From Nocardioides eburneiflavus (GTDB taxonomy: Bacteria; Actinomycetota; Actinomycetes; Propionibacteriales; Nocardioidaceae): a stretch of 64,000 bases of DNA. The stretch spans positions 3,038,001-3,102,000 of the forward strand of contig NZ_SRRO01000001.1 of assembly GCF_004785795.1 (NCBI RefSeq). The letters are read 5' to 3'. A program made the position numbers and the translations under genes. Shown one piece after another: positions 7,159 to 63,256 of the stretch (the first letter of the stretch is position 1; each line of letters opens with the position of its first letter). Under the pieces are notes generated by a model, which made no database searches, was not told where the DNA came from, and was given only the letters and a program-made list of their open reading frames with translations.

Positions 7159-7241
7159 GCCGCCAGGTGATGACGTACAGGGGGCTTGGTTGCCCCAGCG
7201 GAAAGCCGATCGTACCGTGCCCTGTTTGCCGACCCCGTGCG

Positions 7242-46169: not shown

Positions 46170-46182
46170 TCCCCCGATCGGG
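46170..46182 (+). promoter_or_regulatory. TCCCCCNNNNGGG element (site 1)
   Basis: TCCCCCGATCGGG, forward orientation, ~140 bp upstream of the SDR-MFS operon on the + strand. Confidence 0.65.
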
Positions 46183-46323
46183 TCGAGTAGATGACGGATC
46201 CGAGGCGCGGGCGTACGTGACCTACCAGCATGACCGCATGCGTTCATTTGTCGCGGGGCCGTGGATCAACTGCGCCCCGATACCCGCCTGTGAACGCGAC
46301 GTCGTCGTTAGGGGCGTGGTCTC

Positions 46324-47115
46324 GTGAGCAACCTGCCAGTCGCGACCGCAGTGGTCACAGGGGCTGGAAGTGGCATAGGAAAGGCTCTAGCCGAAAGGTT
46401 GGCCATCGAGGGCGTCCGGGTGGTGGTGAACGACCTCGACGCGACTGCCGCGGCCGCGGTTGCAGCATCAACTGGAGCTCTCGCCGTGCCCGGTGACGCT
46501 GCGACGGAGGCCGGCGTGGAGCTGCTGCATGCCGCCGCGGTGGCCCATCTCGATACGATCGACGCGTGGTTCGCGAACGCGGGTGTCGACGCGGGGCGCG
46601 GGCTGCAGACTGCCGAGTCAGAATGGGCCGCGTCGTGGGAAGTCAACGTGATGGCACACGTACGGGCGGCTCGACTTCTGCTTCCAGACTGGGTTGAACG
46701 AGGCAGCGGACGGTTCGTTGTCACCGCCTCGGCAGCCGGCGTGCTCACGATGCTCGGCGCACCGGCCTACGCGGTGACCAAACACGGCGCCGTCGCGTTC
46801 GCTGAGTGGCTGGCCACCACGTATCGGCATCGGGGTGTAGTCGTGCAGGCCATTTGCCCGCAAGGAGTCGACACTCCCATGCTGCGACGCGCAGGTGCGC
46901 TTCAGGACATGCTCAGCCACGACCAAGCACTGACGCCCGCTGACGTCGCCGACATGGTCTGGTCCCCGTTGCACGACGACCGCTTCCTGGTCCTGCCGCA
47001 TCCGGAAGTCGCTTCCTACGCCGCCGCACGCGGTGGAGACCGCGACCGATGGCTCGCGGGCATGAACCGCCTCCAGCAACGTCTGGAACAGCAACAGGTC
47101 CTGCCAGGTGAGTGA
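46324..47115 (+). CDS. Short-chain dehydrogenase/reductase
   Basis: 263 residues from GTG 46324. Classical SDR motifs: cofactor loop VVTGAGSGIGKALA (~10-23), NDLD (~38-41; Asp after strand 2 suggests NAD), FANAGVDAG (~81), catalytic Ser in VVTASAAG and the YAVTK pair (~150). Oxidises or reduces an alcohol/ketone; substrate unknown. It overlaps the MFS gene by 8 nt, so transport and oxidation are co-expressed. Site 1 of the TCCCCC element lies upstream. Confidence 0.85.
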   Translation: MSNLPVATAVVTGAGSGIGKALAERLAIEGVRVVVNDLDATAAAAVAASTGALAVPGDAATEAGVELLHAAAVAHLDTIDAWFANAGVDAGRGLQTAESEWAASWEVNVMAHVRAARLLLPDWVERGSGRFVVTASAAGVLTMLGAPAYAVTKHGAVAFAEWLATTYRHRGVVVQAICPQGVDTPMLRRAGALQDMLSHDQALTPADVADMVWSPLHDDRFLVLPHPEVASYAAARGGDRDRWLAGMNRLQQRLEQQQVLPGE

Positions 47116-48331
47116 ACGGACTACCCAGGCAAACTCGTACGCCAAGGTGATGGATGACAGACCTGTTCGGAATCTCCTGCTCAGCCAATTGCTCGGGAGG
47201 TCTCCGGCCGCCACCATGACGATCGCGTTGTCGGTGTTCGTCCTGGACCAGTACGACGACATCGCACTCGCAGGAACAGTCATAGCGATCTACACGATTG
47301 GCGCCTGCGCAGCCGGTCCCGTGACCACCGGCCTCGTGGCTCGCTTCGACTCCCGCGTCGCTCTGAGCACTGTCGCCGTCCTATGGGCGACCGCGCTGTG
47401 CGCCTTGGCCTTGATCGGACCGTCCTCACGCGTGAGCCTGTGCGTCCTCGCCCTAGTGGTCGGGCTCCTGTTGCCACCCGTCGGACCCGTGGTTCGATCG
47501 ATGTATCCGCGCCTCGTCGAACCGGGTCGGGTGAGCACCCTCATCGCCCTGGACTCCTCCATGGGGGAGTCGATGTGGGTGTTCGGCCCGCTTCTCGTCG
47601 CAATCGCCCAGCACTTCTTCGGCGTGCGGGTTGCTTTGGTGCTGGTGGCAGCGCTGGCCCTGGCGGGAGTGATCCTGGTAGTCGGAAACGGCGCGTTCCG
47701 GAGCCACAGCGGACCGGAACCACAACGCGGGCGAATGCTGACGGTACTGGGGCGTGTCCAGCTCTGGCCCCTGATGATCGGCGTCGTCGGGCTCATGGCC
47801 GGGTGGGGTGCGGCTGAGATTGCACTCGTCGCACGGTTGGACAACAGCCTGCACTTGGGCGCCTTCTTCGCTCTCATGGCTGTCGCCGGAGCCGTATCCA
47901 GCGTTGTATGGGGACGATACCCAATAGGTCCTTCCTCGATGGCGGTGCGCGCGGCTGTCGCCGCATTGGGAATGGGCCTGGCGCTTCTCGACCTCGGCAT
48001 GTGGTGGGTCGCGGCTGCGATGGCGCTCGCTAGCGCCGGCGCGACGCCTACCCTTGCGGCAATCTTCACCCTCACGGTTCGGGTGGTCCCGGCGACCCAG
48101 TCAGCCGTCGCTTTCGGCTGGCTGGCCACCGCCCAGCTGGCTGGGATGTCTCTGGGAGCCTTCGTCGCTGGCCGTGCAATCGACCATTTCCAGAATTGGC
48201 GCTACGGAGTGGCCGCTGCGCTCGCGATGTTCGTACTCAGCGCGACGGCGGGCCTGATGGTGCTGATGAGCGGTCGTAGGGCTAAGCGCAAGGCTGCGAC
48301 GGCGGAGGCTGTGCGGGCCGAGCGCTGGTAG
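47108..48331 (+). CDS. MFS transporter
   Basis: 407 residues from a GTG overlapping the SDR stop. About 12 membrane helices, e.g. LLLSQLLGRSPAATMTIALS, VAVLWATALCALALIG, VSLCVLALVVGLLLPPVGPV, WPLMIGVVGLMAGWGAAEI. The loop after helix 4 (RSMYPRLVEPGRVSTLIALD) fits the YfkF/multidrug-type MFS of actinobacteria. It may import or export an intermediate of the cluster. It ends 4 bp before the convergent imine-reductase-like gene. Confidence 0.8.
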   Translation: MSERTTQANSYAKVMDDRPVRNLLLSQLLGRSPAATMTIALSVFVLDQYDDIALAGTVIAIYTIGACAAGPVTTGLVARFDSRVALSTVAVLWATALCALALIGPSSRVSLCVLALVVGLLLPPVGPVVRSMYPRLVEPGRVSTLIALDSSMGESMWVFGPLLVAIAQHFFGVRVALVLVAALALAGVILVVGNGAFRSHSGPEPQRGRMLTVLGRVQLWPLMIGVVGLMAGWGAAEIALVARLDNSLHLGAFFALMAVAGAVSSVVWGRYPIGPSSMAVRAAVAALGMGLALLDLGMWWVAAAMALASAGATPTLAAIFTLTVRVVPATQSAVAFGWLATAQLAGMSLGAFVAGRAIDHFQNWRYGVAAALAMFVLSATAGLMVLMSGRRAKRKAATAEAVRAERW

Positions 48332-48335
48332 GCAA

Positions 48336-49214
48336 TCAGGACGACGAATCCGCCTGACCCAGCTCGAACTGATACACCGCGGCAAGGTCGAACTGACCCA
48401 GGCCCGCCTCCTGTGCGCCGCGGACGGTTTCGGCCGCGGCGGCAATTGCCTTGCCGGACAAGCCGGCGTCGCGCCAGCCTCGGGCGAAATCGCGGGTCGA
48501 CAGGGCCCACGTGTCGATCGTCGACTCAGTGGCGCTGAAGTCTCCTGAATCGACCATCGGAAGGGCGTAGTCGAGATAGCCCTTCATGTTCGTCAGTGAT
48601 CGGTGCATCCGAGCCACTGCCTGCTCGCGTGGGACGCCGAGGACTTGTGCATATGCGAGCGTGGAGAGCATGGCCGTTTGGACGATGCTGACGAAGCTGA
48701 GCGACACGTGATCGACTGCGTTGGCTAGGCGTGCTTGGTGCCCGAGATACTGCGAGCCGCCGGCCAATCCGCGCAGCATGGTCTCGTTTCGCCTCCACGC
48801 GCCCTCGTCGCCGGAGTACAGCACGACCGTGTCGTCCCTGCCGATTCCCTTCGGGTACGTGAGGAGCGCACCGTCGAGCAGAGTGATTCCGTTCTCCCGC
48901 GTCCACGCCTCCAACTCGTCGGCCTCGGTCGGAGACCCGGTGACGACGTTCACGACGTCGCCGATGTCGCGGTGCTCAAGCGCGTCGGTCAACAGTGCGC
49001 GGACGTTGTCGTAAGAGAGGATGACAAAGAAGACGAGGGGGCTCGCCGTGATGGCCTCCGTGGCCGAGGACGCGATGACTGCACCCTCGCGCTTGAGGTG
49101 CGAGGCCTTCGCGGGTGACCTATTCCAGACCGTGACTGAGTAGCCATTGCGGAGAAGGACGCGAGCCATGGCTGCGCCCATGAGCCCAGTCCCCAGGATT
49201 GATACGTCCGTCAT
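48336..49214 (-). CDS. Imine-reductase-like NAD(P)-dependent oxidoreductase
   Basis: 292 residues from ATG 49214. Rossmann loop ILGTGLMGAAMARVLL (~6-21) and TVWNRSPAKASHL, whose NRS suggests NADPH. The hinge LLDGALLTYPKGIGRDDTVV (~115-134), followed by LYSGD, is the hallmark of imine reductases rather than of hydroxyisobutyrate dehydrogenases, which share the fold. The C-terminal half is the long interdomain helix and dimerisation bundle. Imine reductases convert cyclic imines to amines or run in reverse, which fits an amine-catabolic cluster. A hairpin separates it from the upstream binding-protein gene. Confidence 0.75.
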   Translation of the reverse strand: MTDVSILGTGLMGAAMARVLLRNGYSVTVWNRSPAKASHLKREGAVIASSATEAITASPLVFFVILSYDNVRALLTDALEHRDIGDVVNVVTGSPTEADELEAWTRENGITLLDGALLTYPKGIGRDDTVVLYSGDEGAWRRNETMLRGLAGGSQYLGHQARLANAVDHVSLSFVSIVQTAMLSTLAYAQVLGVPREQAVARMHRSLTNMKGYLDYALPMVDSGDFSATESTIDTWALSTRDFARGWRDAGLSGKAIAAAAETVRGAQEAGLGQFDLAAVYQFELGQADSSS

Positions 49215-49280
49215 GTGAGTCCGTTCTTCGTCGGCGGCCCAGGTCGGTGACCTCCGTGAAAGGTCGTTGGCGCGAGATGC

Positions 49281-49318
49281 GCAGAGCCCCGAGATCCGTG
49301 AGGGTCTCGGGGCTCTGC
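49281..49318 (-). terminator. Hairpin terminator after the binding-protein gene
   Basis: GCAGAGCCCCGAGA (49281-49294) pairs perfectly over 14 bp with TCTCGGGGCTCTGC (49305-49318). It lies just 3' of the ABC binding-protein gene and before the imine-reductase-like gene on the same strand. It may end or weaken transcription between them. Confidence 0.8.
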
Positions 49319-49331
49319 CTTGCAGGGGTGG

Positions 49332-50399
49332 TCAGCCCGCCATGATCCGCGTCCACTCGGCGATGGCAGCGTCGTTGTTCTCGGCCCACCATGCCGGGTC
49401 GTAGGTGTAGGTCTCGCTGATCTCGTCCTCGTGGGACGACAAGACGTACGGCTGGAACTCTTCGGGGACCTCCGGCGCCTCCTTGAGCGGCGAGGAGTAC
49501 GCCGAGTACTCGTAGAAGGGTGCCTGGCCCTCCTCCGTGGCGACGTGCTGCATGAAGGCCCACTGTGCCTCCGGTGACTTGGATCCCTTGACGGCGTAGA
49601 GGACGTCCCAAGCTGCGAATACCTTGTCCCAGACGACGCCGAACTCCGCGCCGTTGCTTTCTGCGATCTGCATGGAGCCGGCGTAGCACAGGCACATGCC
49701 GTAGTCGCCGGACTCCAACGACTGCGTCGCTGCGGTGATGGTGTCCTGGGGAGTCATCTCATCCCCGAGCTTCTGAGTGGCCTCCTCGACCTTCGACCAG
49801 TCCACGGGGTACACCTCGTCAGCCGGAACACCCGCGGTCATGAGGAGCGGTTCCACCTGTCCGTCTGCCCAGTTCAGGAAGATGCGCTTGCCCGGGAAGT
49901 TCTCCACGTCGAGGAAATCTTCGACGCTCGTGGGCGGGTTGTCGCCGTACAGCTCCTTGTTGTAGACAACCTGAATGGGTGCGACGAATGAGGGCACGCC
50001 GCAGTCGTCGGTGACGAACTTCGGGTCGATGGCACTGATGTCGAAGTCAGCAGGGCGCTCGTCGAACAGCTTGCCGCACTCTGCGGCACCGGTTGCGGCC
50101 CCGAAGTCGACGATGTCCCACGTCGTGTTGCCGGCGTCGACCATGGCCTTGACCTTGGCCTGGTCCGGGGGGGAGTCCATGACGATCTGTGCGCCGGTTT
50201 CCTCCGAGAACGGGTCGATCCACCCCTTCTGCATGGCCTCGCCAGAGGAACCGCCCCAGTTGACGACCACGAGCTGCTGCCCGGACAGGTCGCTTCCCCC
50301 GTTCCCTTCGGAGCCGGAGCTGGCGCCGTCAGCGTCGTTGCCGCATGCGGCCAGCAGGGTGACGGCCGCGATTGCGACCGGGATTAGCGTCTTCTTCAT
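49332..50399 (-). CDS. Polyamine/spermidine-type ABC transporter substrate-binding lipoprotein
   Basis: 355 residues from ATG 50399, with AAGAGATG context; frames further upstream are not protein-like. Signal peptide MKKTLIPVAIAAVTLLAAC carries the lipobox LAAC. The mature protein is a PotD/family-1-like binding protein: LVVVNWGGSSGEAMQKGWID, TTWDIVDFGAATGAAECGKL, YNKELYGDNPPTSVEDFLD, WADGQVEPLLMTAG. It likely captures the amine substrate for the two permeases at 62.3-64 kb. Site 2 of the TCCCCC element is 117 bp upstream. Confidence 0.85.
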   Translation of the reverse strand: MKKTLIPVAIAAVTLLAACGNDADGASSGSEGNGGSDLSGQQLVVVNWGGSSGEAMQKGWIDPFSEETGAQIVMDSPPDQAKVKAMVDAGNTTWDIVDFGAATGAAECGKLFDERPADFDISAIDPKFVTDDCGVPSFVAPIQVVYNKELYGDNPPTSVEDFLDVENFPGKRIFLNWADGQVEPLLMTAGVPADEVYPVDWSKVEEATQKLGDEMTPQDTITAATQSLESGDYGMCLCYAGSMQIAESNGAEFGVVWDKVFAAWDVLYAVKGSKSPEAQWAFMQHVATEEGQAPFYEYSAYSSPLKEAPEVPEEFQPYVLSSHEDEISETYTYDPAWWAENNDAAIAEWTRIMAG

Positions 50400-50515
50400 C
50401 TCTTGTCGCCTCTCGTCGAGCATATGGAGTGTCCGCCCGCTGGTGGGGTCGGCCCAAGATGTGACGAACGCTACGTTTGTCGTGAGCATCCGTAGGCCGC
50501 GTAGGTGCAATCACA

Positions 50516-50528
50516 CCCGGTTGGGGGA
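50516..50528 (-). promoter_or_regulatory. TCCCCCNNNNGGG element (site 2)
   Basis: CCCGGTTGGGGGA on the + strand, i.e. reverse orientation, 117 bp upstream of the binding-protein gene on the - strand. Confidence 0.7.
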
Positions 50529-50566
50529 GTCGTCCGTAGGCCACTTCCTTCTGGCCTATGCGGCGG

Positions 50567-51327
50567 TCACCCGATGGTCGCGCCGCCGTCGACGTACAGC
50601 GTCTGCCCGGTGATGTAGGAGGCCTCATCGCTGGCGAGGAACATGGTTGCGGCGGCGATGTCTTCGGGGAATCCGACTCGCTTGACCGGGTTGTTCTCGG
50701 CGCCCACGCGGCGAAACTCTTCTACGTCCAGCTTCAGGCGTGCGGCAGTGGCGTCTGTCATTTCCGTGACGACGAAGCTGGGGGCGATGGCACGGACGTT
50801 GACCCCGAACGCCCCGAGCTCAAGCGCGAGGGTTCTGGTCAACCCTTGGACGCCCATCTTCGCTGCCGAGTAGTTGGCTTGCCCGCGGTTGCCGAGCGCG
50901 GACACTGATGAGACGTTCACAATCTTGCCGTACTTCTGTGCGACCAAGTGAGCTTGGGCGGCTTGACTCATCAAGAACGCACCCTTGAGATGGACAGTCA
51001 TGACCGTGTCCCAGTCGGTCTCTGTCATGCGGAACAACAGACTGTCCCGGGTGACTCCGGCGTTGTTCATCAACACGTGAATGCCCCCCAGTTCGTCGAC
51101 GACCCGAATGACGGCGGCGTTGACGTCAGCCGCCGACCAGGCTCAGCACCGATCCCGATGTGGTGTGAGTCGCCCGGCAATTGCTTGGCGGTCGCCTCGG
51201 CTGCTGCCGCGTCGAGGTCGATGACGGCGACGCTTGCGCCCTCCTCGGCAAAACGGCGGGCGACGCCGGCGCCGATTCCTCGTGCGCCTCCGGTGATTAC
51301 GGCCACACGGCCCACGAACCTGCTCAT
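50567..51327 (-). pseudogene. FabG-like SDR, frameshifted
   Basis: The N-terminal part (MSRFVGRVAVITGGARGIGA, 51327 downwards) and the C-terminal part (MNNAGVTRDSLLFRMTETDW, KIVNVSSVSALG, YSAAKMGVQG, ending DGGATIG at 50567) are in different frames. One extra base at about 51143-51147 joins them as ...GADAWSAADVNAAVIRVVDE..., a complete ~253-residue 3-oxoacyl-ACP-reductase-like SDR with intact Ser/Tyr/Lys. Either the gene is recently broken or the base was lost in sequencing. It sits 3' of site 3 and probably oxidises a hydroxyacyl intermediate. Confidence 0.75.
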
Positions 51328-51411
51328 CGGTGCTCCCTGATAATTGGAGCTCTGTGGAGCAAGCCTCGTCGGTCCAGGTGTGGGAGTGAGCGTGCCCAGG
51401 TGTCATCCGTG

Positions 51412-51424
51412 CCCGAGTGGGGGA
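51412..51424 (-). promoter_or_regulatory. TCCCCCNNNNGGG element (site 3)
   Basis: CCCGAGTGGGGGA on the + strand (reverse orientation), 85 bp upstream of the SDR gene and in the divergent region shared with the thioesterase gene. Confidence 0.7.
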
Positions 51425-51475
51425 TCCAGCTCCGCGTCGGGTGCCTTCTAGGCTGATGTTGACGAAGGAGTGTCC

Positions 51476-51913
51476 ATGTCGAGTGCGACCGAACCGCTAC
51501 CGAGTTTCGACGTCCCTGAGGGGTATGCGTCCTGGTGGTCGTTGGAGCTGCGTCCATGGTTTCGCGACATTGACTACCTCGGACACCTGACGGCGTCGTC
51601 CTACGCCGTCATCTACGAGGAAGCGGTTGGGACGTTCGTGGAAGCGATGTGGGGTACCGACGCGGCGTACGTCGTGGCGCACGTAGCGATCACCTATGGC
51701 CGAGAGGTCAGGATGGGAGAGTCGCCGGTGCGAGTACACGTTCGGTGTGAGGGCGCTGAGGGGTCCCGCTTCAGCTGCGCAATGGTGTTAATCGGGCCGG
51801 ACGGTTCGCCGCGCAGCACTGCGCGTGGCTACTACTCAGCATGGGACATGCAGGCACGTCGGTCCCGCGAGTTGCTCAACGACGAGCGGGAACGCCTCCT
51901 GAGGGGACGCTGA
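51476..51913 (+). CDS. Hotdog-fold acyl-CoA thioesterase
   Basis: 145 residues from ATG 51476, preceded by GAAGGAG; GTG 51470 is also possible. RPWFRDIDYLGHLTASSYAV (~27-46) is the 4-hydroxybenzoyl-CoA thioesterase-type motif, with the catalytic-type Asp before the central helix. VAHVAITYGREVRMGESPVR and FSCAMVLIGPDG fit the rest of the hotdog sheet. It would release a free acid from a CoA intermediate or proofread CoA pools. It converges with the acyl-CoA dehydrogenase genes. Confidence 0.8.
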   Translation: MSSATEPLPSFDVPEGYASWWSLELRPWFRDIDYLGHLTASSYAVIYEEAVGTFVEAMWGTDAAYVVAHVAITYGREVRMGESPVRVHVRCEGAEGSRFSCAMVLIGPDGSPRSTARGYYSAWDMQARRSRELLNDERERLLRGR

Positions 51914-51946
51914 ACTTGACCTGTACTGCCCTTCCGGGCCGTGTGG

Positions 51947-53089: not shown

Positions 53090-53098
53090 GTATCGCTC

Positions 53099-54250: not shown

Positions 54251-54369
54251 CGGTCTACTCGCTCGCTCGGTGGGGCGTCGGGTGTGCGCGACAGCGTCTA
54301 CCGCCACGCAAGAACTAGGTCATGCTGCCGCCGGGGCGAGCCTCCGACCACGGTCGCGGAAGTTCAGTG

Positions 54370-54382
54370 CCCGCATGGGGGA
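54370..54382 (-). promoter_or_regulatory. TCCCCCNNNNGGG element (site 4)
   Basis: CCCGCATGGGGGA on the + strand (reverse orientation), 120 bp upstream of the acyl-CoA dehydrogenase operon on the - strand, in the gap before the amine-dehydrogenase stop. Confidence 0.7.
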
Positions 54383-54392
54383 TCGGCGCCGG

Positions 54393-56591
54393 TCAGCGGC
54401 GGTCCTGCTGAATGAGCGTGAGCAGCTTGCGGGGGTCACCGTCTGCGTCGTGCATCGCCCCCCAGTGGCTGAGCTCACGGCGGGTGCGCAGCGGAGTGGC
54501 AGGATCAGAACTGTCGAACTCGCGTCCGAGCCGGTGCCCGTCGAAAATCGCTTCGGACAGCTGGCGTGGAGAGACGCAGTCGCCGGCCCGGAACACACCC
54601 TGCACCCCCGCGTCCGCCCAGTCGCCCTTCCGGGCCATCAATCCGCGGTACAACTCGGTGTCCGATCGACGGCCCGTGGCAAGGACGACCGCATCGAACT
54701 CGCGGACGATGCCTGCACCGCCCGGCTCCCGGACCGAGTCCGAGGCGTCGGGGAAGCGACGGAACCCGTCCTCGAACAGCCCATGCAGCGTCAGTTGCCC
54801 ATTGTGCATCACGGAAACGTAGGTCTCGACGAGGAGTTCGACGTCCAGTTCACGCATGAGGCGCGCAACGTTGGGCAGTTCACCGGTGTACAGGGTGTAG
54901 GCGGCGGGCCTGACGAAGGGGGTGATGTACGTGACCGCGTGGCCCTTCTGGCTCAGCAGTTCGGTGAGTCCCAGCCCAGCTGCGTACCCGTCGAAGTCAA
55001 GGACAGCAACGGTCCGACCAGGCACTTCCTTGCCTTCGAGCATGATCTGTTCGGGAGTAAGGATGTGCGGAAGGGATGCGTCGACGCCCGGGATGGGTGC
55101 GTGGGTGACGTGGTTCGTTCCATCGGCGGCGAAATGGGCCCCCGTCGCCACCACCACGTAACCGGCTCCGTAGTCCAAAGCGTCCTCGGGAGTCATCGGG
55201 GTGCGCGTGATCACCTCGATGTTGGACAACTTGTCGAGTTGGATCTGGCGGTAGTCCAGGAGGCGGCGCCAGTCGCCCAGGCGTGGCAACTCGGGAAGCC
55301 AGCGCAGGACGCCTCCCATTGTCGAAGCACCGTCGATCAGGTGGACGTTGCGCATTTCTCGCTTGGCCAGGACCATGGCGCACTCGAGGCCCGCGGGCCC
55401 GGAGCCGATGACGATGACGTCGTTTTCATGGTTCTTGGCTTTGGTGAAGATTTCCGGGTGCCAGCCCCGACGGAACTCCTCCATCATGGTGGCGTTCTGG
55501 GTGCAAACGACACGGGAGTGAGCCTCCCACCGAGCGATGCAGGCGTTGCAGCCGATGCACTCGCGGATCTCGTCGACGCGCCCTTCGTCGATCTTCCTCG
55601 GAAGGAACGGATCCGCGATTGAGGGGCGGGCGGCGCCGATGACGTCGAGTTGCCCGTTCTTGATCGCGGCGACCATCGTGTCTGGGGATGTCAGACGCCC
55701 CACGCCGATGATTGGCTTCGTTACGGCATTGCGCGCTTCGAGATGCCACAGAGCTTCATGGTTCTCGGGGTAGAAACGGGATGCAGCGATGTCCTCGCCC
55801 CAGTCCCAACTGGAGATATTGAGGTCGAACGCGTCGACCAAGGGATCTAGCCAACGCAGCACCTGCAAGGCGTCGCCAAGGGGTACCCCGCCGTCGCCAC
55901 GCAGGTCGTCGAGGGAGACACGAGGAACGATGGCGCAGTCGTCTCCGACGGCGTCACGCACGGCCTGGACAACCTCGATCCAGTGACGAGTCCGGTTCTC
56001 GAGCGAACCGCCGTACTGGTCCTCACGCTTGTTATGGAACGGGGAAAGGAAACGGGCCGGACCGAGGTCCTGCGATCCGTGGATGCAGATGATGTCGTAG
56101 CCGGCATCGCGTGCTCGCCTAGCGGCGGTGGCCCAATCGGCAGCGAGATCACGGATTTCCTCTTCGGTCGCCTCCACGCCGTACCCGATGAGTCCCTCGA
56201 ACACCTCGTTGCCGAGCTGGCTGGGGTTGCGTGCCACGAGCCGCTCGCCGAACCCACGCGTGAACCCGCTGTACCCAAGTTCGATCCCGGCCAGAGCGTC
56301 GTGCTCGTGGATTGCTGCAGCGAGCAGCGACAACTGACGTACGTCGTCGTCGTCCCACAACGTGGGCTGGCGGAGGGGTAAGGCGTCCGCTTCAGGGTGG
56401 ATGGAAATCAACTCCGTGAAGACCGCTCCCCATCCGCCTTCCGCCTTGACTGAGCGGTGCAACGCATTCTGCAGCGGCGTCTCAGCGGTCGAGCCGGTGC
56501 ACTGCGGTACCTGCCAAAACCTGTTAGGCAGCGTCTTCGGCCCGATCTGCAGCGGCTCGAAGAGAATGTCGTAGCGCGCGTCGCGACTCAT
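54393..56591 (-). CDS. Trimethylamine-dehydrogenase-family flavoprotein (amine dehydrogenase)
   Basis: 732 residues from ATG 56591, against ~730 for trimethylamine dehydrogenase. The start MSRDARYDILFEPLQIGPKT is nearly that of the known enzyme. Cys31 in QVPQCTG aligns with the cysteine that binds FMN covalently. The TIM barrel has HNKREDQYGGSLENRTRHW and WDWGED with the conserved Trp and Asp. The 4Fe-4S cysteines are CIGCNAC...VVCTQNA (~345-365). The ADP/NAD-like domains start at VIVIGSGPAGLECA. By my alignment the substrate Tyr60 is Leu, and Tyr169/His172 are His/Gln, so the substrate is probably not trimethylamine. It would oxidatively cleave a C-N bond and pass electrons to a flavoprotein. 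Confidence 0.85.
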   Translation of the reverse strand: MSRDARYDILFEPLQIGPKTLPNRFWQVPQCTGSTAETPLQNALHRSVKAEGGWGAVFTELISIHPEADALPLRQPTLWDDDDVRQLSLLAAAIHEHDALAGIELGYSGFTRGFGERLVARNPSQLGNEVFEGLIGYGVEATEEEIRDLAADWATAARRARDAGYDIICIHGSQDLGPARFLSPFHNKREDQYGGSLENRTRHWIEVVQAVRDAVGDDCAIVPRVSLDDLRGDGGVPLGDALQVLRWLDPLVDAFDLNISSWDWGEDIAASRFYPENHEALWHLEARNAVTKPIIGVGRLTSPDTMVAAIKNGQLDVIGAARPSIADPFLPRKIDEGRVDEIRECIGCNACIARWEAHSRVVCTQNATMMEEFRRGWHPEIFTKAKNHENDVIVIGSGPAGLECAMVLAKREMRNVHLIDGASTMGGVLRWLPELPRLGDWRRLLDYRQIQLDKLSNIEVITRTPMTPEDALDYGAGYVVVATGAHFAADGTNHVTHAPIPGVDASLPHILTPEQIMLEGKEVPGRTVAVLDFDGYAAGLGLTELLSQKGHAVTYITPFVRPAAYTLYTGELPNVARLMRELDVELLVETYVSVMHNGQLTLHGLFEDGFRRFPDASDSVREPGGAGIVREFDAVVLATGRRSDTELYRGLMARKGDWADAGVQGVFRAGDCVSPRQLSEAIFDGHRLGREFDSSDPATPLRTRRELSHWGAMHDADGDPRKLLTLIQQDRR

Positions 56592-56667
56592 GGGCAGTCC
56601 TTCCGAAGGTGGCGCCTCGACGCTAATGCGTGCGGCGTGCACGGCGGTCCATTGCCTTGCATCGCCA

Positions 56668-56680
56668 CCCGGGTGGGGGA
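56668..56680 (-). promoter_or_regulatory. TCCCCCNNNNGGG element (site 5)
   Basis: CCCGGGTGGGGGA on the + strand (reverse orientation), 77 bp upstream of the amine-dehydrogenase gene. Confidence 0.7.
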
Positions 56681-56709
56681 GGCCGATCACATGCGCATAT
56701 GAAAGATCA

Positions 56710-56722
56710 TCCCCCGAGCGGG
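56710..56722 (+). promoter_or_regulatory. TCCCCCNNNNGGG element (site 6)
   Basis: TCCCCCGAGCGGG, forward orientation, 108 bp upstream of the + strand SDR gene. Forms a back-to-back pair with site 5 in the divergent promoter region. Confidence 0.7.
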
Positions 56723-56829
56723 TGTGGTCCGTAAGCAAGCGCGACGAGCAACTGAACGGCATGGGGGAATGACAGCGTTGTCGCGAGACCGCGATGACGC
56801 AGGAAACTGACTCAATGCGTCCTCACTAG

Positions 56830-57627
56830 ATGGGAACCAGCATGCCGATCACCTTCGATCTGACCGGAAAGACCGCAGTGGTAACCGGAGGAAGCCGCGG
56901 CATCGGACTCATGGCGGCCCGGGGCCTCGTGCAGGCCGGAGCGCGTGTCTACGTCGTCTCCCGCGTCGAAGACGCGTGCCGTACAGCAGCTGCCGACCTC
57001 GCGCAGATTGAGGGATCGGCAGACGTGATCCCGCTCGCTGCCGACCTCGCTACGGAGGAAGGTTGCCGCAAGTTCACTGACGCGATTGCACAACGCGAGG
57101 AGTCTCTCGACATCCTCATCAACAACGCAGGCGCGGCCTGGGGCGCGCCGTTGGAGGAGTACCCGGTCTCAGGGTGGGACAAGGTAGTCGACCTCAACCT
57201 TCGGGCTCCCTTCCTCCTCGTCCAGGCGTTGCTTCCGCTCCTCGAGGCGGCAGGTGATGCCATTGACCCCGCTCGCGTCATCAACGTCGGTTCCATCGAC
57301 GGACTCCGAGTCCCCGGCCTCCCCACATATGCCTACTCGGCCAGCAAGGCAGGAGTCCACCACCTCACACGCGTCCTCGCAGTCGAGCTCGGTCCTCGCC
57401 ACGTGATCGTCAACGCGATCGCACCCGGACCCTTCGAGTCAAGAATGATGGCGGCCACGCTTGAGTCTCATCAGGAGCGACTGGAGAGCACGGCCCCGTT
57501 GCGCCGTATCGGTAAGCCCGACGACATCGCGGGCACCGTCGTGTTCTTGAGCAGTTGGGCATCGTCTTACATCACCGGCGCCGTTATCCCGGTAGATGGC
57601 GGGATCAACCTGCAGGCCGAGGCGTAA
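56830..57627 (+). CDS. Short-chain dehydrogenase/reductase (gluconate-5-dehydrogenase/FabG-like)
   Basis: 265 residues from ATG 56830; ATG 56842 is an alternative. VVTGGSRGIGLMAARGLVQA (~18-37), NNAGAAWGAPLEEYP, NVGSIDGLRVPG and YAYSASKAGVHHL (~162-174) give a complete classical SDR. A YI-TGAVIPVDGG ending is present. Arg following strand 2 (VVSRVEDAC) hints at NADPH. Transcribed divergently from the amine-dehydrogenase gene with paired TCCCCC elements between them. Substrate unknown; beta-hydroxyacyl or alcohol oxidation would fit. Confidence 0.85.
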   Translation: MGTSMPITFDLTGKTAVVTGGSRGIGLMAARGLVQAGARVYVVSRVEDACRTAAADLAQIEGSADVIPLAADLATEEGCRKFTDAIAQREESLDILINNAGAAWGAPLEEYPVSGWDKVVDLNLRAPFLLVQALLPLLEAAGDAIDPARVINVGSIDGLRVPGLPTYAYSASKAGVHHLTRVLAVELGPRHVIVNAIAPGPFESRMMAATLESHQERLESTAPLRRIGKPDDIAGTVVFLSSWASSYITGAVIPVDGGINLQAEA

Positions 57628-57934
57628 CCAGGAAACACGAGCTATGGGCGGTCACATCGGGACTGTGCAGGTCCAAGCACTTCGGCGTAAGCCTCGGCTC
57701 GTTCGCGAAACAGTGTTGATCCTCGCACGCTTCCTGGGGCCGCCAGGCGTCCGGAGCGCCTGGCCCCGAAGGGACGATCGAGGAACGATTGCGGTCGGGC
57801 AGGCTGAGCTCGACTATCGGTGTCCTGCCCAGTTGTGCGGCGCCGCGGTTTCGATCGAAACCTTCGACGCGAACAGGGCGGGCTCCCAGAGAGCACGAAT
57901 CCCGCCCGGGCAGCAGCGGCGTTCCAGTGTCGAG
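57628..57934. other. 307-bp convergent intergenic region
   Basis: Separates the convergent SDR and ligase genes. Apart from the hairpin listed separately it holds no supported gene or repeat. Confidence 0.5.
57736..57767. terminator. Bidirectional hairpin between convergent genes
   Basis: GCCAGGCG (57742-57749) pairs with CGCCTGGC (57757-57764), extended by GGGG (57736-57739) against CCC (57765-57767) across a 2-nt bulge. Confidence 0.55.
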
Positions 57935-59512
57935 TCAGGCCGGGCGCCCTTCAGCGTCATAGACCGAAACGGAAAGCCCCCTCGCGCGGAGTTCGGCCTT
58001 CGCCACTCTGTGTGACGGTGTCTTGGGGAGATCGGCTACGACGTCGATGAATCGCGGAAGCGCGAAGCGGGGGAGATCCTTGGACATCTGAGTCCGCAGC
58101 TCCGCGGGGTCGAGGTTGGTGTCCGGCCGCGGGATGACAACTAGGGCGACGTCTTCCTCGCCCAGGGGCGAAGGAACCCCGATGGCTGCGGCATCCAAGA
58201 CGCCGGGATGTGCCAGCGCGGTGCGCTCGACCTCCCAGGCCGAGATGTTTTCACCACGTCGTCGGATCGAGTCCTTGAGGCGCCCTATGTAACGGAAGCT
58301 GCCGTCCTCGAGTTCTTGGAGCAGGTCGCCCGTGTGGAACCACAGACCCTGCCAGGCCTGGACGGTCGCCTCTGGATTGCGCCAGTAGCCCTGCATGTGC
58401 GCACCGCGGCGCGTCGGTCGAACGACGAGCTCGCCAACCGATCCTTGAGGCAGCGGCATTCCCGACGAGTCGATGATGCGCACTTCCGCTCCGGCAAGGG
58501 GTCGACCGACGTTGCCGGGTCCTCCTTCGCCGAGGCTCTGATTCAGGATGGCCGGGAACTCGGTCATCCCGTAACCCTCTATGAGTTCGGTGTTGAAACG
58601 GAACTCGAAGTCAGCGTGCATCGCGGTGGGGATCGACGAACCGATGCCGACGCGTCGGGTGGCCGGCCTGGGTCCCGCCGGCTGCTTCATCAGGATGGGC
58701 AACATCGCACCGATGAATGAGAACATTTCTGCGTTCGCCGCCTCCACGTCGGTCCAGAAACGGGTGGCGCTAAACCGGCGCGGAATGACGATGGTGCCCC
58801 GTCGAGCAAGGACGTTGATGACGTGGATGCGTGCGTCTATGTGGCACAGAGGCTGCGGGCAGTAGACCGTTTTGGACCCACTCAGCTTGTAGAACGGGTC
58901 ATAGTCTCCCGCCATGGTGGCGTAGTACTCGTGGGCAATCATCACGCCTTTAGGTGCGCCGGTGCTTCCCGACGAGAACATGACCGTGGCCATGTCAGAG
59001 CCCCGTACGCTAGGAAGAGGCGCAGCAGCGTCGTCGACGTGGATCAAGTCTCCAAATTTTGCGTAGGGGGTGGTCGCGTCGACCGTCGCATCTGGGTCGA
59101 CGAGGATTACGTGCTTAATGGACGTCGCGACCTCCCCGAGCGCGCCGGCGTCATTTAGGCGCCCCAGGAGCGCGCTGGTCGTGATCACCGCCCGAGGAAG
59201 TGCGACGGCCACGGTCCGGGCAAGAGAGGCGCCCATCGCGTCCTCCGAGACCGGGACGTCGATGGCGCCCGCTGCGCCCACCGCCAACCAACTCCACAAC
59301 GCCTCCGGGATGTTGGGCAGCAAAAGTAGGACGCGGTCACCCGGTGCAATCCCGAGCGAAGACAACCCGCGAGCCGCCCCGGTTACCAGATCGAAGGATT
59401 CGCGGTAACTGAACTCGGTGTCGTCCACCTGCGCAAAGGTCCGGTCCGGGGAGTCCTTCGCGGCCGCCTTAAGCTCGCCGAGCAAGGTGGCGACCACTTC
59501 TACATCAGGCAT
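57935..59512 (-). CDS. AMP-dependent acyl-CoA ligase (CaiC-like)
   Basis: 525 residues from ATG 59512. ANL motifs: ATVMFSSGSTGAPKGVM (~182-198), EGYGMTEFPAILNQSLGE (~310), WFHTGDLLQELEDG (~395), RYIGRLKDSIRRRGENISAW (~410) and the catalytic lysine region PKTPSHRVAKAEL near the end. The RRRGENIS motif groups it with crotonobetaine/carnitine-CoA ligase-like enzymes. It activates a carboxylic acid to its CoA ester with ATP, feeding the acyl-CoA dehydrogenase pair. Site 7 is 55 bp upstream. Confidence 0.85.
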   Translation of the reverse strand: MPDVEVVATLLGELKAAAKDSPDRTFAQVDDTEFSYRESFDLVTGAARGLSSLGIAPGDRVLLLLPNIPEALWSWLAVGAAGAIDVPVSEDAMGASLARTVAVALPRAVITTSALLGRLNDAGALGEVATSIKHVILVDPDATVDATTPYAKFGDLIHVDDAAAPLPSVRGSDMATVMFSSGSTGAPKGVMIAHEYYATMAGDYDPFYKLSGSKTVYCPQPLCHIDARIHVINVLARRGTIVIPRRFSATRFWTDVEAANAEMFSFIGAMLPILMKQPAGPRPATRRVGIGSSIPTAMHADFEFRFNTELIEGYGMTEFPAILNQSLGEGGPGNVGRPLAGAEVRIIDSSGMPLPQGSVGELVVRPTRRGAHMQGYWRNPEATVQAWQGLWFHTGDLLQELEDGSFRYIGRLKDSIRRRGENISAWEVERTALAHPGVLDAAAIGVPSPLGEEDVALVVIPRPDTNLDPAELRTQMSKDLPRFALPRFIDVVADLPKTPSHRVAKAELRARGLSVSVYDAEGRPA

Positions 59513-59566
59513 GGCGTCATAGTGCTGGTGCCTCGTAGCGACGCATCGTCTCACTCGTCTTTCCCG

Positions 59567-59579
59567 CCCAGTCGGGGGA
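59567..59579 (-). promoter_or_regulatory. TCCCCCNNNNGGG element (site 7)
   Basis: CCCAGTCGGGGGA on the + strand (reverse orientation), 55 bp upstream of the ligase gene on the - strand. Confidence 0.7.
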
Positions 59580-59598
59580 GGTTCGATGCGCACGAGGA

Positions 59599-59611
59599 TC
59601 CCCCGACCGGG
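59599..59611 (+). promoter_or_regulatory. TCCCCCNNNNGGG element (site 8)
   Basis: TCCCCCGACCGGG, forward orientation, ~105 bp upstream of the likely TetR start. Paired with site 7; it would make the regulator autoregulated if the TetR protein binds it. Confidence 0.7.
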
Positions 59612-59715
59612 TACATGCTGTACGGGTGATCGTCACAAGGACGAGTATGACTGCTTGGCTGTGCGGGAACCACACGACTTGGGGTCGCCTGGCGGCCATG
59701 GGGAGAGGCGAAGAA

Positions 59716-60348
59716 GTGACAAAAAGGCGTGAGGTCGCACTTGCCAACCTGCTGGCCGCAGCAATCAAGACTTTCGCTGAGCACGGCTTTCACGGTTCAT
59801 CGATCAAGGACGTCGCGCGTGCAGCGGGTGTGTCACCCGCAGCCATCTACCTGTACGCGGACTCCAAAGAAGAACTCCTGTACCTGATCTCTCGCGACGG
59901 TCACCAAGAGGCGGTTCGCGTCGTAGAAGCTGCAGTTGCAGGCGGAGGCTCCGTCCTCGAACGCACGCGTCGAGCCGTTCACGACCTGGTGTTGCACCAT
60001 GTGCGCTTCCACACCATGTCTCGCGTCGTGAATTACGAGCTCGCGGCGTTGAGCCGCGAACATTCTGAAGAAATTGTCGCTCTCCGTCGTCAGCTCAACG
60101 ACGCTTTCAAGCACCTGGTTGATGACGGCATCACCGGAGGCGACTTCGAGCCGCCCGACCGACGAATGGCCGTGACCGGACTGATGTCCTTGGCCGTCGA
60201 TACGGCCCGGTGGTACCACCCGGGCCTCGGGCCGAGCTATGCGCCAGAGATCATCGCGGACTCGTACGCCGAAATGGCAGTGCGAATGTTGACCGGCACT
60301 GCCGTGCCCGCGGTCCCGGCGATGAGCGGCGGCGCGCCTTACGCCTGA
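59716..60348 (+). CDS. TetR/AcrR-family transcriptional regulator
   Basis: 210 residues if started at GTG 59716, which has GGGGAGAGG 8 nt upstream; ATG 59698 and ATG 59626 are in frame. The N-terminal helix-turn-helix is classical (AEHGFHGSSIKDVARAAGVS, then PAAIYLYADSKEELL). The C-terminal ligand domain (VLERTRRAVHDLVLHHVRFH; RMAVTGLMSLAVDTARWYHP) resembles FadR/KstR2-like regulators that sense acyl-CoA. It is the only DNA-binding regulator in the cluster, so it is the first candidate for the TCCCCC sites. The 3' end overlaps the convergent USP gene by 10 bp. Confidence 0.85.
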   Translation: MTKRREVALANLLAAAIKTFAEHGFHGSSIKDVARAAGVSPAAIYLYADSKEELLYLISRDGHQEAVRVVEAAVAGGGSVLERTRRAVHDLVLHHVRFHTMSRVVNYELAALSREHSEEIVALRRQLNDAFKHLVDDGITGGDFEPPDRRMAVTGLMSLAVDTARWYHPGLGPSYAPEIIADSYAEMAVRMLTGTAVPAVPAMSGGAPYA

Positions 60349-60764
60349 GTGTGCGCCACGTACACGTCGCAAGGCGCCGTAGCGGTCACGTCATGGGCAA
60401 CGCTGCCAAGGATCCGGCCGATGCCCTGAGCTCGCTTGTTCCCAACGACAATGAGTCCAGCATCGATGCTCTCCGCATAACGCACAAGCGACTCCACCGC
60501 GCGACCGCGCACCGAGGCCGGCACCACCTGCACGTCGGGAAAGACCTTACGAATGCGTCGAGCTGAACGTTCCACGACGGCAGTCGCTTGCTCGGCCGTG
60601 CTGAGCACAACCTCCTGAGTGCCACCTTCGAACTGCTCGACGGCGTCTCGCTTGAAGGCCATCAGTAGATGAAGGTCAGCTTGAAGAGCCTGAGCCAAGC
60701 GCCCGGCCACCAACGCGGCGGTCTCCGCAGTCTCAGTCCCATCCACTCCGACGACAATTCTCAT
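60339..60764 (-). CDS. Universal stress protein
   Basis: 141 residues. MRIVVGVDGTETAETAALVA and the C-terminal VVGNKRAQGIGRILGSVAHD carry the ATP-binding G-x2-G-x9-G-S type pattern of UspA-fold proteins. It lies 9 bp downstream of the amine-oxidase gene and is probably co-transcribed with it from the promoter containing site 9. Role in the pathway unknown; USPs often mark stress- or carbon-linked operons. Confidence 0.85.
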   Translation of the reverse strand: MRIVVGVDGTETAETAALVAGRLAQALQADLHLLMAFKRDAVEQFEGGTQEVVLSTAEQATAVVERSARRIRKVFPDVQVVPASVRGRAVESLVRYAESIDAGLIVVGNKRAQGIGRILGSVAHDVTATAPCDVYVAHTQA

Positions 60765-60773
60765 GGCTCGTCC

Positions 60774-62126
60774 CTAGGCCGACGCAGCCACAGACGCACG
60801 GAGTTCCTCGCCAACGGATCGGCCCACGTGGTAGCCGCTGTTGTTGGCGCCGGCGAGGCCAGGCTCGGCCGTGTAGTCGCCGCAGAAACGCACACGCCCA
60901 TGTGCCTGGCGCAGTGCCGAACGATCGGCGTACGAGCCCGGTCGCATCCAAGGCAGTCCCACGGGGCTCCACCGCTGGACCACCGCTCCGGCCGGGTCAA
61001 TCAGCGTGCGCGCCTCAGGGAACATCGCGACGATGTGGTCGAAGAACCGGCTCACGATCTCGGCGTCCGTGCCTAGGAGCACCGCCTGCGCCTTGTGTGC
61101 ATTCGCGATGGTGACGACATGGCCCCCCAGCTCCGGACAGTCGCGCTTACCGAGGTAGGAGAAGTTGGTGAAGAGCGAGAACGGCGATCGCCCAGACACG
61201 GGCAGGAAGAACATCCCGTCCCATGGAGCTCGGACTCGATCCTTCACGGGCCAAGCCACCGAGACAATCTGCCCGTACGGTGCTCGGCTCAGCATGGCGC
61301 TGCGCATGTCGCCTGGAAGGTCGTCGAACACGCCCACGACAGCCGACGAGGGCATCGCGCACACTACTCGAAGAGCGTTCAAGCTCTGCTGCTGACCATC
61401 TTGGTCCTCAAAGTGGACTGTCACGTGGTCGCTGTCCTGGTCGACCTTGATCACTCGACAACCGAGGCGCACAGCGTCTGCTGGCAGCACCTCGGCGATG
61501 CGCTGCGTGATGCGTTGAGTGCCTCCACGAGCTCCGCGCACCTGCTTGCTCGACTTGGGGTCGATGTAGGCGCTCAGGCCGTATACGAGCCCCATGAGAG
61601 CGGAGACCTCATTGGCAGGCACGCCGGCTGCGCCCTCGCAGAAGCCGTTGAGAATCTGGTGAGTGGTCGGGGCGGCTCGTCCGATGACGCGTGAAAGCGA
61701 CTGCGAGTCGAGCTCCAGCTTCTCGTCCTGTGTCATCTTCGGCACGCGGTGCAGAAGTCGTCGCAGGCGAAGCACGGTCACAGCGAAGTCCGCCTTCTCT
61801 GCCAACGTGAGCGGCATCTTCAAGAACAGCTTCTCAGCGGTGGAGCCTCGAGCCCATCGGTCGTCGATGCCGACCGCGAAGTCCGCACCCTCGATTGAAA
61901 CCGAATCAATCCCAAGCTCCTCGCACAGGGACAGAAGCCGCGGGCTCGTGACAATCTGCGCGCCGAGGTTGTACCAGATCTGGTCGTCGCCGCCCGAGTA
62001 TGTTCGTCCACCGACGCGGTCGAGCTCCTCGAGCACGATCACCCGGTGGTCGCGCAGCTCGTATGCCGCGGTCATACCTGCGATGCCCGCCCCAAGAACA
62101 ATGACGTCAGCGTCGGTGTGGACCAT
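60774..62126 (-). CDS. FAD-dependent amine oxidase (MAO-like)
   Basis: 450 residues from ATG 62126, preceded by CCGGAGGTCACC. Dinucleotide-binding VIVLGAGIAGMTAAYELRD (~9-27), the GGRTYSGG motif (~41) and the C-terminal FCGDYTAEPGLAGANNSGYH (~415) define the flavin amine oxidase/protoporphyrinogen-oxidase superfamily. The middle region is substrate-binding and has no diagnostic motif. It would oxidise an amine to an imine with O2 or another acceptor. In an operon with the USP gene. The substrate is unknown; phytoene-desaturase-like activity cannot be excluded. Confidence 0.8.
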   Translation of the reverse strand: MVHTDADVIVLGAGIAGMTAAYELRDHRVIVLEELDRVGGRTYSGGDDQIWYNLGAQIVTSPRLLSLCEELGIDSVSIEGADFAVGIDDRWARGSTAEKLFLKMPLTLAEKADFAVTVLRLRRLLHRVPKMTQDEKLELDSQSLSRVIGRAAPTTHQILNGFCEGAAGVPANEVSALMGLVYGLSAYIDPKSSKQVRGARGGTQRITQRIAEVLPADAVRLGCRVIKVDQDSDHVTVHFEDQDGQQQSLNALRVVCAMPSSAVVGVFDDLPGDMRSAMLSRAPYGQIVSVAWPVKDRVRAPWDGMFFLPVSGRSPFSLFTNFSYLGKRDCPELGGHVVTIANAHKAQAVLLGTDAEIVSRFFDHIVAMFPEARTLIDPAGAVVQRWSPVGLPWMRPGSYADRSALRQAHGRVRFCGDYTAEPGLAGANNSGYHVGRSVGEELRASVAASA

Positions 62127-62210
62127 GGTGACCTCCGGATCGTGCGTGTCTATGTACACCTCAGATTGGCTCAAGCACCTGCCAGCGAGGTCCTGGCTCC
62201 TCACACAACG

Positions 62211-62223
62211 CCCGATCGGGGGA
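62211..62223 (-). promoter_or_regulatory. TCCCCCNNNNGGG element (site 9)
   Basis: CCCGATCGGGGGA on the + strand (reverse orientation), 85 bp upstream of the amine-oxidase gene. Confidence 0.7.
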
Positions 62224-62248
62224 GTGGCGATTGCCCACCGGGTTAGCA

Positions 62249-62261
62249 TCCCCCAGTTGGG
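62249..62261 (+). promoter_or_regulatory. TCCCCCNNNNGGG element (site 10)
   Basis: TCCCCCAGTTGGG, forward orientation, 78 bp upstream of the ABC permease gene. Back-to-back with site 9. Confidence 0.7.
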
Positions 62262-62338
62262 CGGTGACTAGGGAGGTGCCTGAGGTCACAGCGCGACTGC
62301 GCCTACCGTGAGGACACACGGCAAGGACGGAGGGCGCC

Positions 62339-63256
62339 ATGAGCCTCGTCAAGGAGACAATGGACCTGGACGCGCATCCACAAGCGTCCGGTGACGCGCA
62401 GAGGAAAAGACGCTTCGCCCTCACCAACCCGCTGTTGGTGCTTCCGGCAGCCGTTTTTGTCGCTCTCGCATTCGGCTACCCGGTGCTACAGATGTTTTGG
62501 CTGAGCATCACAGACTTTCCGACCGGGGAGGGAAGTTGGTACTCGAACTTCAGTTGGTACTTCTCGGACGCGACCCAGATGACGATTCTGCGCCGCACCT
62601 TCCTGGTTGCCGCGTGGGTCACGGTGTCGTGCCTCGTGCTGGGTTTCCCATACGCATACCTCATGACGACAGTGAGCAAGAGGTGGCGGCTGGTCATGAT
62701 CGCCGGTGTGATGCTGCCGTTTTGGTCAAACCTCGTGGTGCGGACCTACGCCTGGGTCATCCTGCTCCAGGACGTTGGCCCCGTCCCGGCCCTCATCGAG
62801 TCCTTCGGCATCGACGCACCACGACTGATCGGCAATGTCGCCGGCATGACGATCGGCGCGACCCAGGTGCTACTTCCGTTCCTGGTCCTGCCGCTCTACG
62901 CCGGCCTGCAAGGAATCGATCGCAGGCTGCTGGATGCGGCGCAGAGTCTTGGGGCCAACCCCGCGAAGGCATTTGTCAAGATCTACCTACCGCTGGCGGT
63001 GCCTGGTGTGTTCGCTGGAGGCATGCTCGTGTTCGTGTTGTCCCTGGGCTTCTACTTCACCCCGGCGCTTCTGGGAAGTCCGGGTGAAAGCCTGATCTCC
63101 CAACAGATCGTCATCCAGACCAGCAAGTTGCTGGCGTTCGGCCGAGGCGGCGCCATGGCGTTCATTCTGCTGGTGCTCACGTTGGTTCTCTTTGGCCTCG
63201 CCGGGATCGTGACCCGCGCGCGCACGCGCGGCATCGATGCTGGAGGTGCGCGATGA
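62339..63256 (+). CDS. Polyamine-type ABC transporter permease (PotB-like)
   Basis: 305 residues, ATG preceded by ACGGAGGGCG. Six membrane helices (LLVLPAAVFVALAFGYPVLQ; TFLVAAWVTVSCLVLGFPYA; LVMIAGVMLPFWSNLVVRTY ...). The EAA-type cytoplasmic loop is LLDAAQSLGANPAKAFVKIY, which contacts the ATPase. The sequence is like PotB/PotH permeases for spermidine and putrescine. The stop overlaps the ATG of the second permease (ATGA). Works with the binding protein at 49.3-50.4 kb; the ATPase gene is not in the window. Confidence 0.9.
   Translation: MSLVKETMDLDAHPQASGDAQRKRRFALTNPLLVLPAAVFVALAFGYPVLQMFWLSITDFPTGEGSWYSNFSWYFSDATQMTILRRTFLVAAWVTVSCLVLGFPYAYLMTTVSKRWRLVMIAGVMLPFWSNLVVRTYAWVILLQDVGPVPALIESFGIDAPRLIGNVAGMTIGATQVLLPFLVLPLYAGLQGIDRRLLDAAQSLGANPAKAFVKIYLPLAVPGVFAGGMLVFVLSLGFYFTPALLGSPGESLISQQIVIQTSKLLAFGRGGAMAFILLVLTLVLFGLAGIVTRARTRGIDAGGAR

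Follow-up and report, generated by a model that had tools for sequence, protein, structure and literature searches.

The window analysed here, a 64-kb stretch of the 5.0-Mb Nocardioides eburneiflavus genome (positions 3,038,001 to 3,102,000 of contig NZ_SRRO01000001.1), contains ten exact copies of a short element, TCCCCCNNNNGGG (hereafter the box), all lying within positions 46170–62261. An exact-match search recovered these copies on the strands and at the coordinates reported in an initial annotation of the DNA. By comparison, 100 dinucleotide shuffles of the window yielded 1.67 copies on average and 6 at most, none of them reaching ten. Copies with one mismatch were not enriched in the window (29 found, 43 expected), and the excess thus resides in the exact copies. 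Four further boxes lie past the window end, at genome positions 3105732 (minus strand) and 3107175, 3110453 and 3113281 (plus strand), so that 14 boxes occupy genome positions 3084170–3113281, a 29-kb region that we refer to as the island. In the island copies, the N4 spacer is not free: its first base is a purine and its last base a pyrimidine, and the base that follows GGG is a pyrimidine (14 of 14). The sharper form TCCCCCRNNYGGGY fits all 14 island boxes, and the consensus of the box is aTCCCCCRNNYGGGY. The genome holds 71 exact copies of TCCCCCNNNNGGG and 29 of TCCCCCRNNYGGGY; of the latter, 14 are in the island, where a first-order Markov model predicts 0.11, and 15 elsewhere, with none in the 46 kb preceding and the 25 kb following the island. 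An isolated box that matches the consensus is found at genome positions 3276496–3276509, about 160 kb from the island.

A Pfam scan of 30 translations defined the gene content of the island. The enzymes include short-chain dehydrogenases (SDR), acyl-CoA dehydrogenases, two acyl-CoA ligases, a thiolase, a thioesterase and an NADH:flavin oxidoreductase, as well as a flavin amine oxidase, reductive-aminase-like and saccharopine-dehydrogenase-like proteins, DmmA-like and heme-dependent oxidative N-demethylase alpha-like proteins and a phosphotransferase-family protein. A solute-binding protein with an ABC permease and ATPase, an MFS protein and a Usp protein are also encoded. The island probably degrades an amine, as indicated by genes for a flavin amine oxidase, for components of a heme-dependent N-demethylase and for an ABC importer. 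By eye, a RidA-like protein was also read in some related islands. The regulators of the island are a TetR-family protein (59626–60348), a response regulator (RR) encoded outside the window, and a second TetR protein, 26% identical to the first, whose gene adjoins that of RR (minus strand of the RR locus L032, open reading frame (ORF) 6521–7294, likely start 7153). The boxes of the window, the -10-like hexamers that accompany them and the genes behind them are listed below in window coordinates, gene starts being our own calls from ORFs and third-position G+C.

Box 1, TCCCCCGATCGGG, 46170..46182, plus strand: upstream of an SDR gene (46324–47115); -10-like CAGCAT at 46226–46231.
Box 2, TCCCCCAACCGGG, 50516..50528, minus strand: upstream of an ABC solute-binding protein gene, start about 50400.
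-10-like TAGCGT, 50468..50473, minus strand: +55 from the start of box 2.
Box 3, TCCCCCACTCGGG, 51412..51424, minus strand: upstream of a frame-shifted SDR gene, start 51327; no YANNNT at 54–57.
Box 4, TCCCCCATGCGGG, 54370..54382, minus strand: upstream of two acyl-CoA dehydrogenase genes; -10-like CAGCAT at 54322–54327.
Box 5, TCCCCCACCCGGG, 56668..56680, minus strand: upstream of an NADH:flavin oxidoreductase gene, start about 56591.
-10-like TAGCGT, 56620..56625, minus strand: +55 from the start of box 5.
Box 6, TCCCCCGAGCGGG, 56710..56722, plus strand: divergent partner of box 5, upstream of an SDR gene (56830–57627); no YANNNT at 54–57.
Box 7, TCCCCCGACTGGG, 59567..59579, minus strand: upstream of an AMP-binding acyl-CoA ligase gene; -10-like CACTAT at 59519–59524.
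Box 8, TCCCCCGACCGGG, 59599..59611, plus strand: divergent partner of box 7, upstream of the TetR-family gene; no YANNNT at 54–57.
TetR-family gene, 59626..60348, plus strand: TetR_N and TetR_C_24 domains; true start perhaps nearer 59716; apparently a target of box 8.
Box 9, TCCCCCGATCGGG, 62211..62223, minus strand: upstream of a flavin amine oxidase gene; -10-like CAATCT at 62163–62168.
Box 10, TCCCCCAGTTGGG, 62249..62261, plus strand: divergent partner of box 9, upstream of an ABC permease gene (62339–63256).
-10-like TACCGT, 62304..62309, plus strand: +55 from the start of box 10.

The SDR gene behind box 3 (50567–51327, minus strand) is split by a frameshift: the start frame runs into stops and the C-terminal 169 residues are open in another frame, which reflects either a pseudogene or a sequencing error.

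As proposed in the initial annotation, the orientation of the boxes tracks the direction of the genes, and the starts of the three back-to-back pairs in the window are 42, 32 and 38 bp apart. The distances to start codons, first put at mostly 55–140 bp, are 62–141 bp for starts chosen by eye or from the ORF, boxes 7 and 8 being excluded. That all sites are intergenic holds only for suitably chosen starts, as some boxes lie inside the longest ORF of the neighbouring gene.

The arrangement of these promoters was analysed in the islands of nine genomes, using 116 hits of TCCCCCRNNYGGG with the 40 bases before and the 170 bases after each; the hits correspond to 113 places, as three self-palindromic sites are counted on both strands (offset 3), and include five flagged inside a predicted gene. 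The positional composition has a single strong distal peak, at +55 to +61 from the box start, which corresponds to a -10-like hexamer. YANNNT starts at +54 to +57 in 66 of the 116 hits (other windows: mean 3.56, maximum 10) and the stricter TANNNT in 31 (mean 0.19, maximum 2). The latter starts at +55 in 17 cases, at +56 in 8 and at +54 and +57 in 3 each, and no other offset between +20 and +164 has more than one case. Per genome, YANNNT is in register in 10/14 (this island), 12/19, 6/11, 5/11, 7/11, 6/10, 7/14, 8/13 and 5/13 boxes. The gap between box and -10 is usually 42–43 bp, and no conserved -35 was found among the 116 hits. Outside the islands, the register was seen at 0/16 sampled boxes in G526, 2/20 in G485 and 2/12 in the genome under study (16 of 28 boxes, 20 of 46, and 12 from the first 30 listed TCCCCCNNNNGGG matches, respectively), that is, 4/48 compared to 66/116 in the islands (Fisher p about 3e-9). 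Divergent box pairs number 19 and are present in 8 of the 9 islands. If transcription starts about 7 bases past the -10, the box centre would lie at about -60.5, the position of a class I activator. ATG or GTG is found at +54, +55 and +56 from the box end in 14, 18 and 10 cases (mean elsewhere, 3.5); this peak coincides with the start site expected about 7 bases past the -10 and would fit leaderless transcripts.

These data support the suggestion of the initial annotation that the box is a dedicated, asymmetric, promoter-linked site. Its inner core, CCCRNNYGGG, is symmetric, and the left flank (TCC) differs from the right one (Y(R)). Among one-mismatch forms in the islands, a correctly placed -10 is associated with 4 of 7 TCACCC variants and with 6 of 11 first-base changes, compared to none of 13 changes at the fourth or fifth box base.

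The RR gene lies at genome positions 3105825–3106508 (L032 5826–6512) and encodes 228 residues; as it is located 3.8 kb beyond the window end, it was invisible to the initial annotation. RR is a response regulator of the NarL/LuxR family (Response_reg, 7.1e-15; GerE, 1.1e-16), which aligns with ChrA, DesR and DevR over residues about 32–225. Ser83 of RR occupies the column of the phospho-acceptor Asp of these three proteins. Ser is found in this column in 11 of 12 aligned RR members and Glu in one (L049); the third RR of genome G063 likewise has Ser. No histidine kinase was detected among the 30 scanned translations, which are proteins of this island. Given the replacement of Asp by Ser and the absence of a partner kinase among the scanned genes, RR is probably regulated through its abundance.

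When public genomes were searched with RR, 11 loci (53–64% identity in the alignment) were returned, in Streptomyces, Streptacidiphilus, Amycolatopsis, Actinomadura, Aeromicrobium and one uncultured bacterium. In a phylogenetic tree, the 13 RR members lie on one side of a branch that separates them from three other response regulators (100/100). The order of branches inside the group departs from taxonomy, with Streptomyces in both parts, which suggests that RR has spread horizontally. Among 80 Amycolatopsis genomes, 3 carry RR (E 1e-35, with 36 candidates scored in each); in the wider class, 1 of 394 genomes does so at E 1e-40 among the rows listed (7 candidates scored in each), the one being that of N. 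eburneiflavus. At E 1e-20, relatives were found in 13 of 58 genomes; besides this genome, they are only 32–40% identical and do not belong to the same family. Searches of 72,556 plasmid records (E 1e-30) gave no match, and no NCBIfam model scored above its cut-off among the 25 matches listed. Several RR paralogues are found in or near one island in some genomes, two each in G062 and G526 and three in G063.

The box co-occurs with RR. Nine of the 11 RR loci carry 3–6 exact boxes in the fetched flank, 35 in total versus 0.86 expected; the fetched flanks of L042 and L049 have no full-form box. In the genomes of RR carriers the boxes are concentrated in a single stretch, with 11 of 38 in G059, 18 of 46 in G062, 8 of 21 in G065, 11 of 43 in G058, 10 of 27 in G061, 14 of 41 in G063 and 9 of 22 in G064, while G060 has at least 3 boxes near RR and 11 matches of the 13-base form in the first 40 kb. 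The initial annotation had asked whether the motif is equally frequent in unrelated regions and conserved in related clusters: 14 of the 29 boxes of the genome lie in the island, and boxes are conserved in 9 of the 11 RR loci. The Amycolatopsis genomes provide a less biased test of co-occurrence, with 3 carriers only: these contain 46, 38 and 47 boxes compared to a mean of 27.4 in the other 77 (p = 0.0025). In G526, a 69-kb region with both RR genes contains 19 of the 47 boxes, whereas in G485, which has no RR, at most 4 of 46 boxes are found in any 69 kb. Across the 80 Amycolatopsis genomes the count of TCCCCCRNNYGGGY ranges from 16 to 47, and in nearly every one tabulated, with or without RR, this sequence is clearly commoner than its backward-read control.

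The box and RR resemble several known systems. According to PMC4125116, Streptomyces BldM binds TCACcCgnncGgGTGA as a homodimer and, with WhiI, TGnnCCGnnCGGGTGA as a heterodimer, the latter sites being asymmetric in a way that resembles the box; both proteins are described there as orphan, atypical NarL-class response regulators thought to act independently of phosphorylation (PMC4125116). The 16-bp frame of these sites resembles that of the island box, TCCCCCRNNYGGGYR. RR is thus likened to BldM and WhiI through its putative site and through its atypical orphan status. Unlike the BldM site, the island box has C for A at the third position, GGGY as right half and a looser right end, and RR is rare, scattered and tied to catabolic islands rather than to development. 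The usual distance to the -10 is a feature described here for the island boxes. Searches of the literature, whose coverage of print is poor, did not find the consensus strings in five forms, and a broader search returned no paper.

DevR/DosR, ChrA and DesR, NarL-family regulators of solved structure, share the domain order of RR and can be aligned with it over nearly the full length. Each works with a sensor kinase and retains the phospho-acceptor Asp, whereas RR has Ser, and the scanned genes revealed no kinase. The class I activator CRP acts at -61.5. The island promoters are similar in that the box centre would lie near -60 and no -35 is conserved; RR belongs to a different protein family, and its putative contact with RNA polymerase is deduced from position only. 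STAND/LAL LuxR-type activators, of which MalT is an example, share the GerE domain, and such proteins are encoded in seven related islands; the N. eburneiflavus genome has none with at least 55% identity, and where present the protein probably acts above RR.

Two kinds of element are found upstream of RR genes. In the RR promoter region of N. eburneiflavus, a TetR-type palindrome, TGAACGATCAGT-N9-ACTGATCGTTCA, surrounds TATGTT; its arms, TGAATGAACGATCAGT and ACTGATCGTTCATTCA, lie in L032 5760–5825 (genome 3105759–3105824), immediately preceding the RR gene. Of the three copies of TGATCGTTCA in the genome, two are at this palindrome. A standard sigma-70 scan of this region found nothing at its threshold, and the promoter TTGCTC-17 bp-TATGTT is a reading by eye only. 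Similar palindromes precede RR in L047 and L049, and a less regular one in L039. In other carriers the upstream element is GTAGTTCCCCGGGTGYCC, which is located, with 0–2 mismatches, 84–282 bp upstream of the aligned RR part in G059, G060, G064 and L042, and also before all three RR genes of G063 and one of the two in both G062 and G526; the second RR of the latter two has no copy at up to 3 mismatches. One extra copy in G064 is not before RR. GTAGTTCCCCGGGTGYCC precedes RR only in genomes whose island encodes a STAND-ATPase LuxR protein (the genome of L042 being G061). This protein comprises about 780 residues with NB-ARC/AAA and GerE domains, GerE having been found in the G059 protein. Relatives with 55–74% identity to the latter are encoded on the box-rich stretch of G060–G064 and G526, some of them adjoining RR. 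The best relative in G058 and in the N. eburneiflavus genome (G000) is 43–44% identical and lies outside the island, and no relative was found at E 1e-60 in G065 and G066. The nine tree-included RR genes of this kind form one group (98/95), and the upstream palindrome and GTAGTTCCCCGGGTGYCC were never found together in any RR carrier examined. GTAGTTCCCCGGGTGYCC is a candidate site for the STAND-ATPase LuxR protein, and we infer that RR may be served by two interchangeable input modules, TetR or STAND-LuxR. A further palindrome, TAAGCAAGCGCTTAG (up to one mismatch), is present in the islands of G059, G060 (two copies), G062, G063, G064 and G526. It lies mostly 60–80 bp downstream of a box, between box and thiolase gene in G059, G060 and G063, and is perhaps a TetR operator combined with the box.

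Taken together, these observations make it probable that the box is an activator site in a rather rigid promoter, with RR, itself presumably under the control of a TetR protein, as the most likely activator. Several points weigh against this. The YANNNT hexamer is absent from the expected place in 50 of 116 hits (46 of 102 in the other islands, 4 of 14 in this one); such boxes may have weaker -10s or be inactive. The island of G526 lies outside the set in which the rule was found and agrees with it (YANNNT in register in 12 of 19 boxes), but this genome looks like close kin of G062, and the agreement is therefore not a fully independent confirmation. ATG or GTG is as frequent (17) at offset +46, inside the -10 region, as at the offsets that would fit leaderless transcripts. 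The islands were found by means of RR, whose presence there is partly by construction. In G061, the source of L042, the 10-box stretch lacks RR over the 30 of 39.9 kb read, and RR lies on another contig. L049, the most divergent RR, with Glu instead of Ser, has no full-form box in its 7.4-kb contig, and its source, G066, has only 5 boxes, at most 2 of them on one contig. The number of boxes in G485, where no RR passed the threshold applied, equals that in the RR carriers. Finally, the box is asymmetric, a feature that a homodimer need not favour.

This asymmetry would be explained if RR paired with a second regulator, such as BldM or a different protein of the NarL type, and the heterodimer bound the box, a reading that we regard as unlikely. 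The two halves of the box, TCCCCC on the left and GGGY(R) on the right, are not alike, BldM–WhiI sites have a comparable asymmetry (PMC4125116), and the RR paralogues of G062, G526 and G063 make heterodimers more likely. However, protein clustering, which covered the island proteins, showed no second regulator common to the nine islands, and the symmetric inner core would suffice for a homodimer; binding of a heterodimer is possible, but not needed. The STAND-ATPase LuxR-type regulator, with its GerE domain and its location in islands and sometimes beside RR, is improbable as the protein that binds the box: box and geometry are the same in G000, G058 and G065, whose islands lack it, and where it is present a different element, GTAGTTCCCCGGGTGYCC, lies upstream of RR.

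Of the roles envisaged in the initial annotation, that of an activator site is favoured by three features: the gap to the -10 is usually 42–43 bp, no -35 is conserved, and box and gene are oriented along the same strand. That the box serves as an operator for the local TetR-family repressor (59626–60348), whose gene lies in the island with a box in front, is very unlikely: at the clustering threshold used, its family is present in only 4 of the 9 box-carrying islands, and the constant polarity and usual distance to the -10 do not fit a TetR operator. TetR proteins would rather bind the TetR-type palindromes unlike the box that exist in the islands, before RR or, as TAAGCAAGCGCTTAG, in six others. 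Less likely still, an alternative sigma factor could use the box as a -35-like element or as part of its promoter, as the orientation of the box and its usual distance from a -10-like hexamer might suggest. Sigma hexamers are spaced by roughly 16–19 bp, far less than the gap observed here, and no sigma-factor gene was found among the 30 scanned translations of this island, the other islands not having been scanned gene by gene. As for a chance or composition effect, the 14-mer is indeed common in GC-rich genomes, as its counts in the 80 Amycolatopsis genomes show; the excess in the island over the Markov expectation and the near absence of the -10 register at sampled boxes outside islands exclude this explanation for practical purposes.

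If RR is the activator, the circuit would operate as follows. A TetR protein, probably the one encoded beside RR, would hold RR off via the palindrome in its promoter, until an inducer, possibly a metabolite of the pathway, frees this promoter. RR would then accumulate, without need for phosphorylation, and bind the boxes at about -60; with the box centre placed as in class I promoters, RR bound there would bring in the housekeeping RNA polymerase, and the genes behind the fourteen boxes would be switched on.

The sequence rule described here (box, about 42–43 bp, YANNNT) lets promoters, start sites and regulon members be predicted over tens of kb of catabolic genes, and RR offers a clear case in which to study how response regulators function when their usual residue cannot be phosphorylated. 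More tentatively, with a likelihood that we place slightly on the doubtful side, RR may be a mobile, phosphorylation-free master switch controlled by its amount, of which the output (box, fixed step, -10 and often a leaderless mRNA) has been kept in catabolic islands across actinobacterial families, and the input, TetR versus STAND-LuxR, has been swapped over evolutionary time. Should both input modules prove real, they would represent a fixed output circuit rewired to a new sensor.

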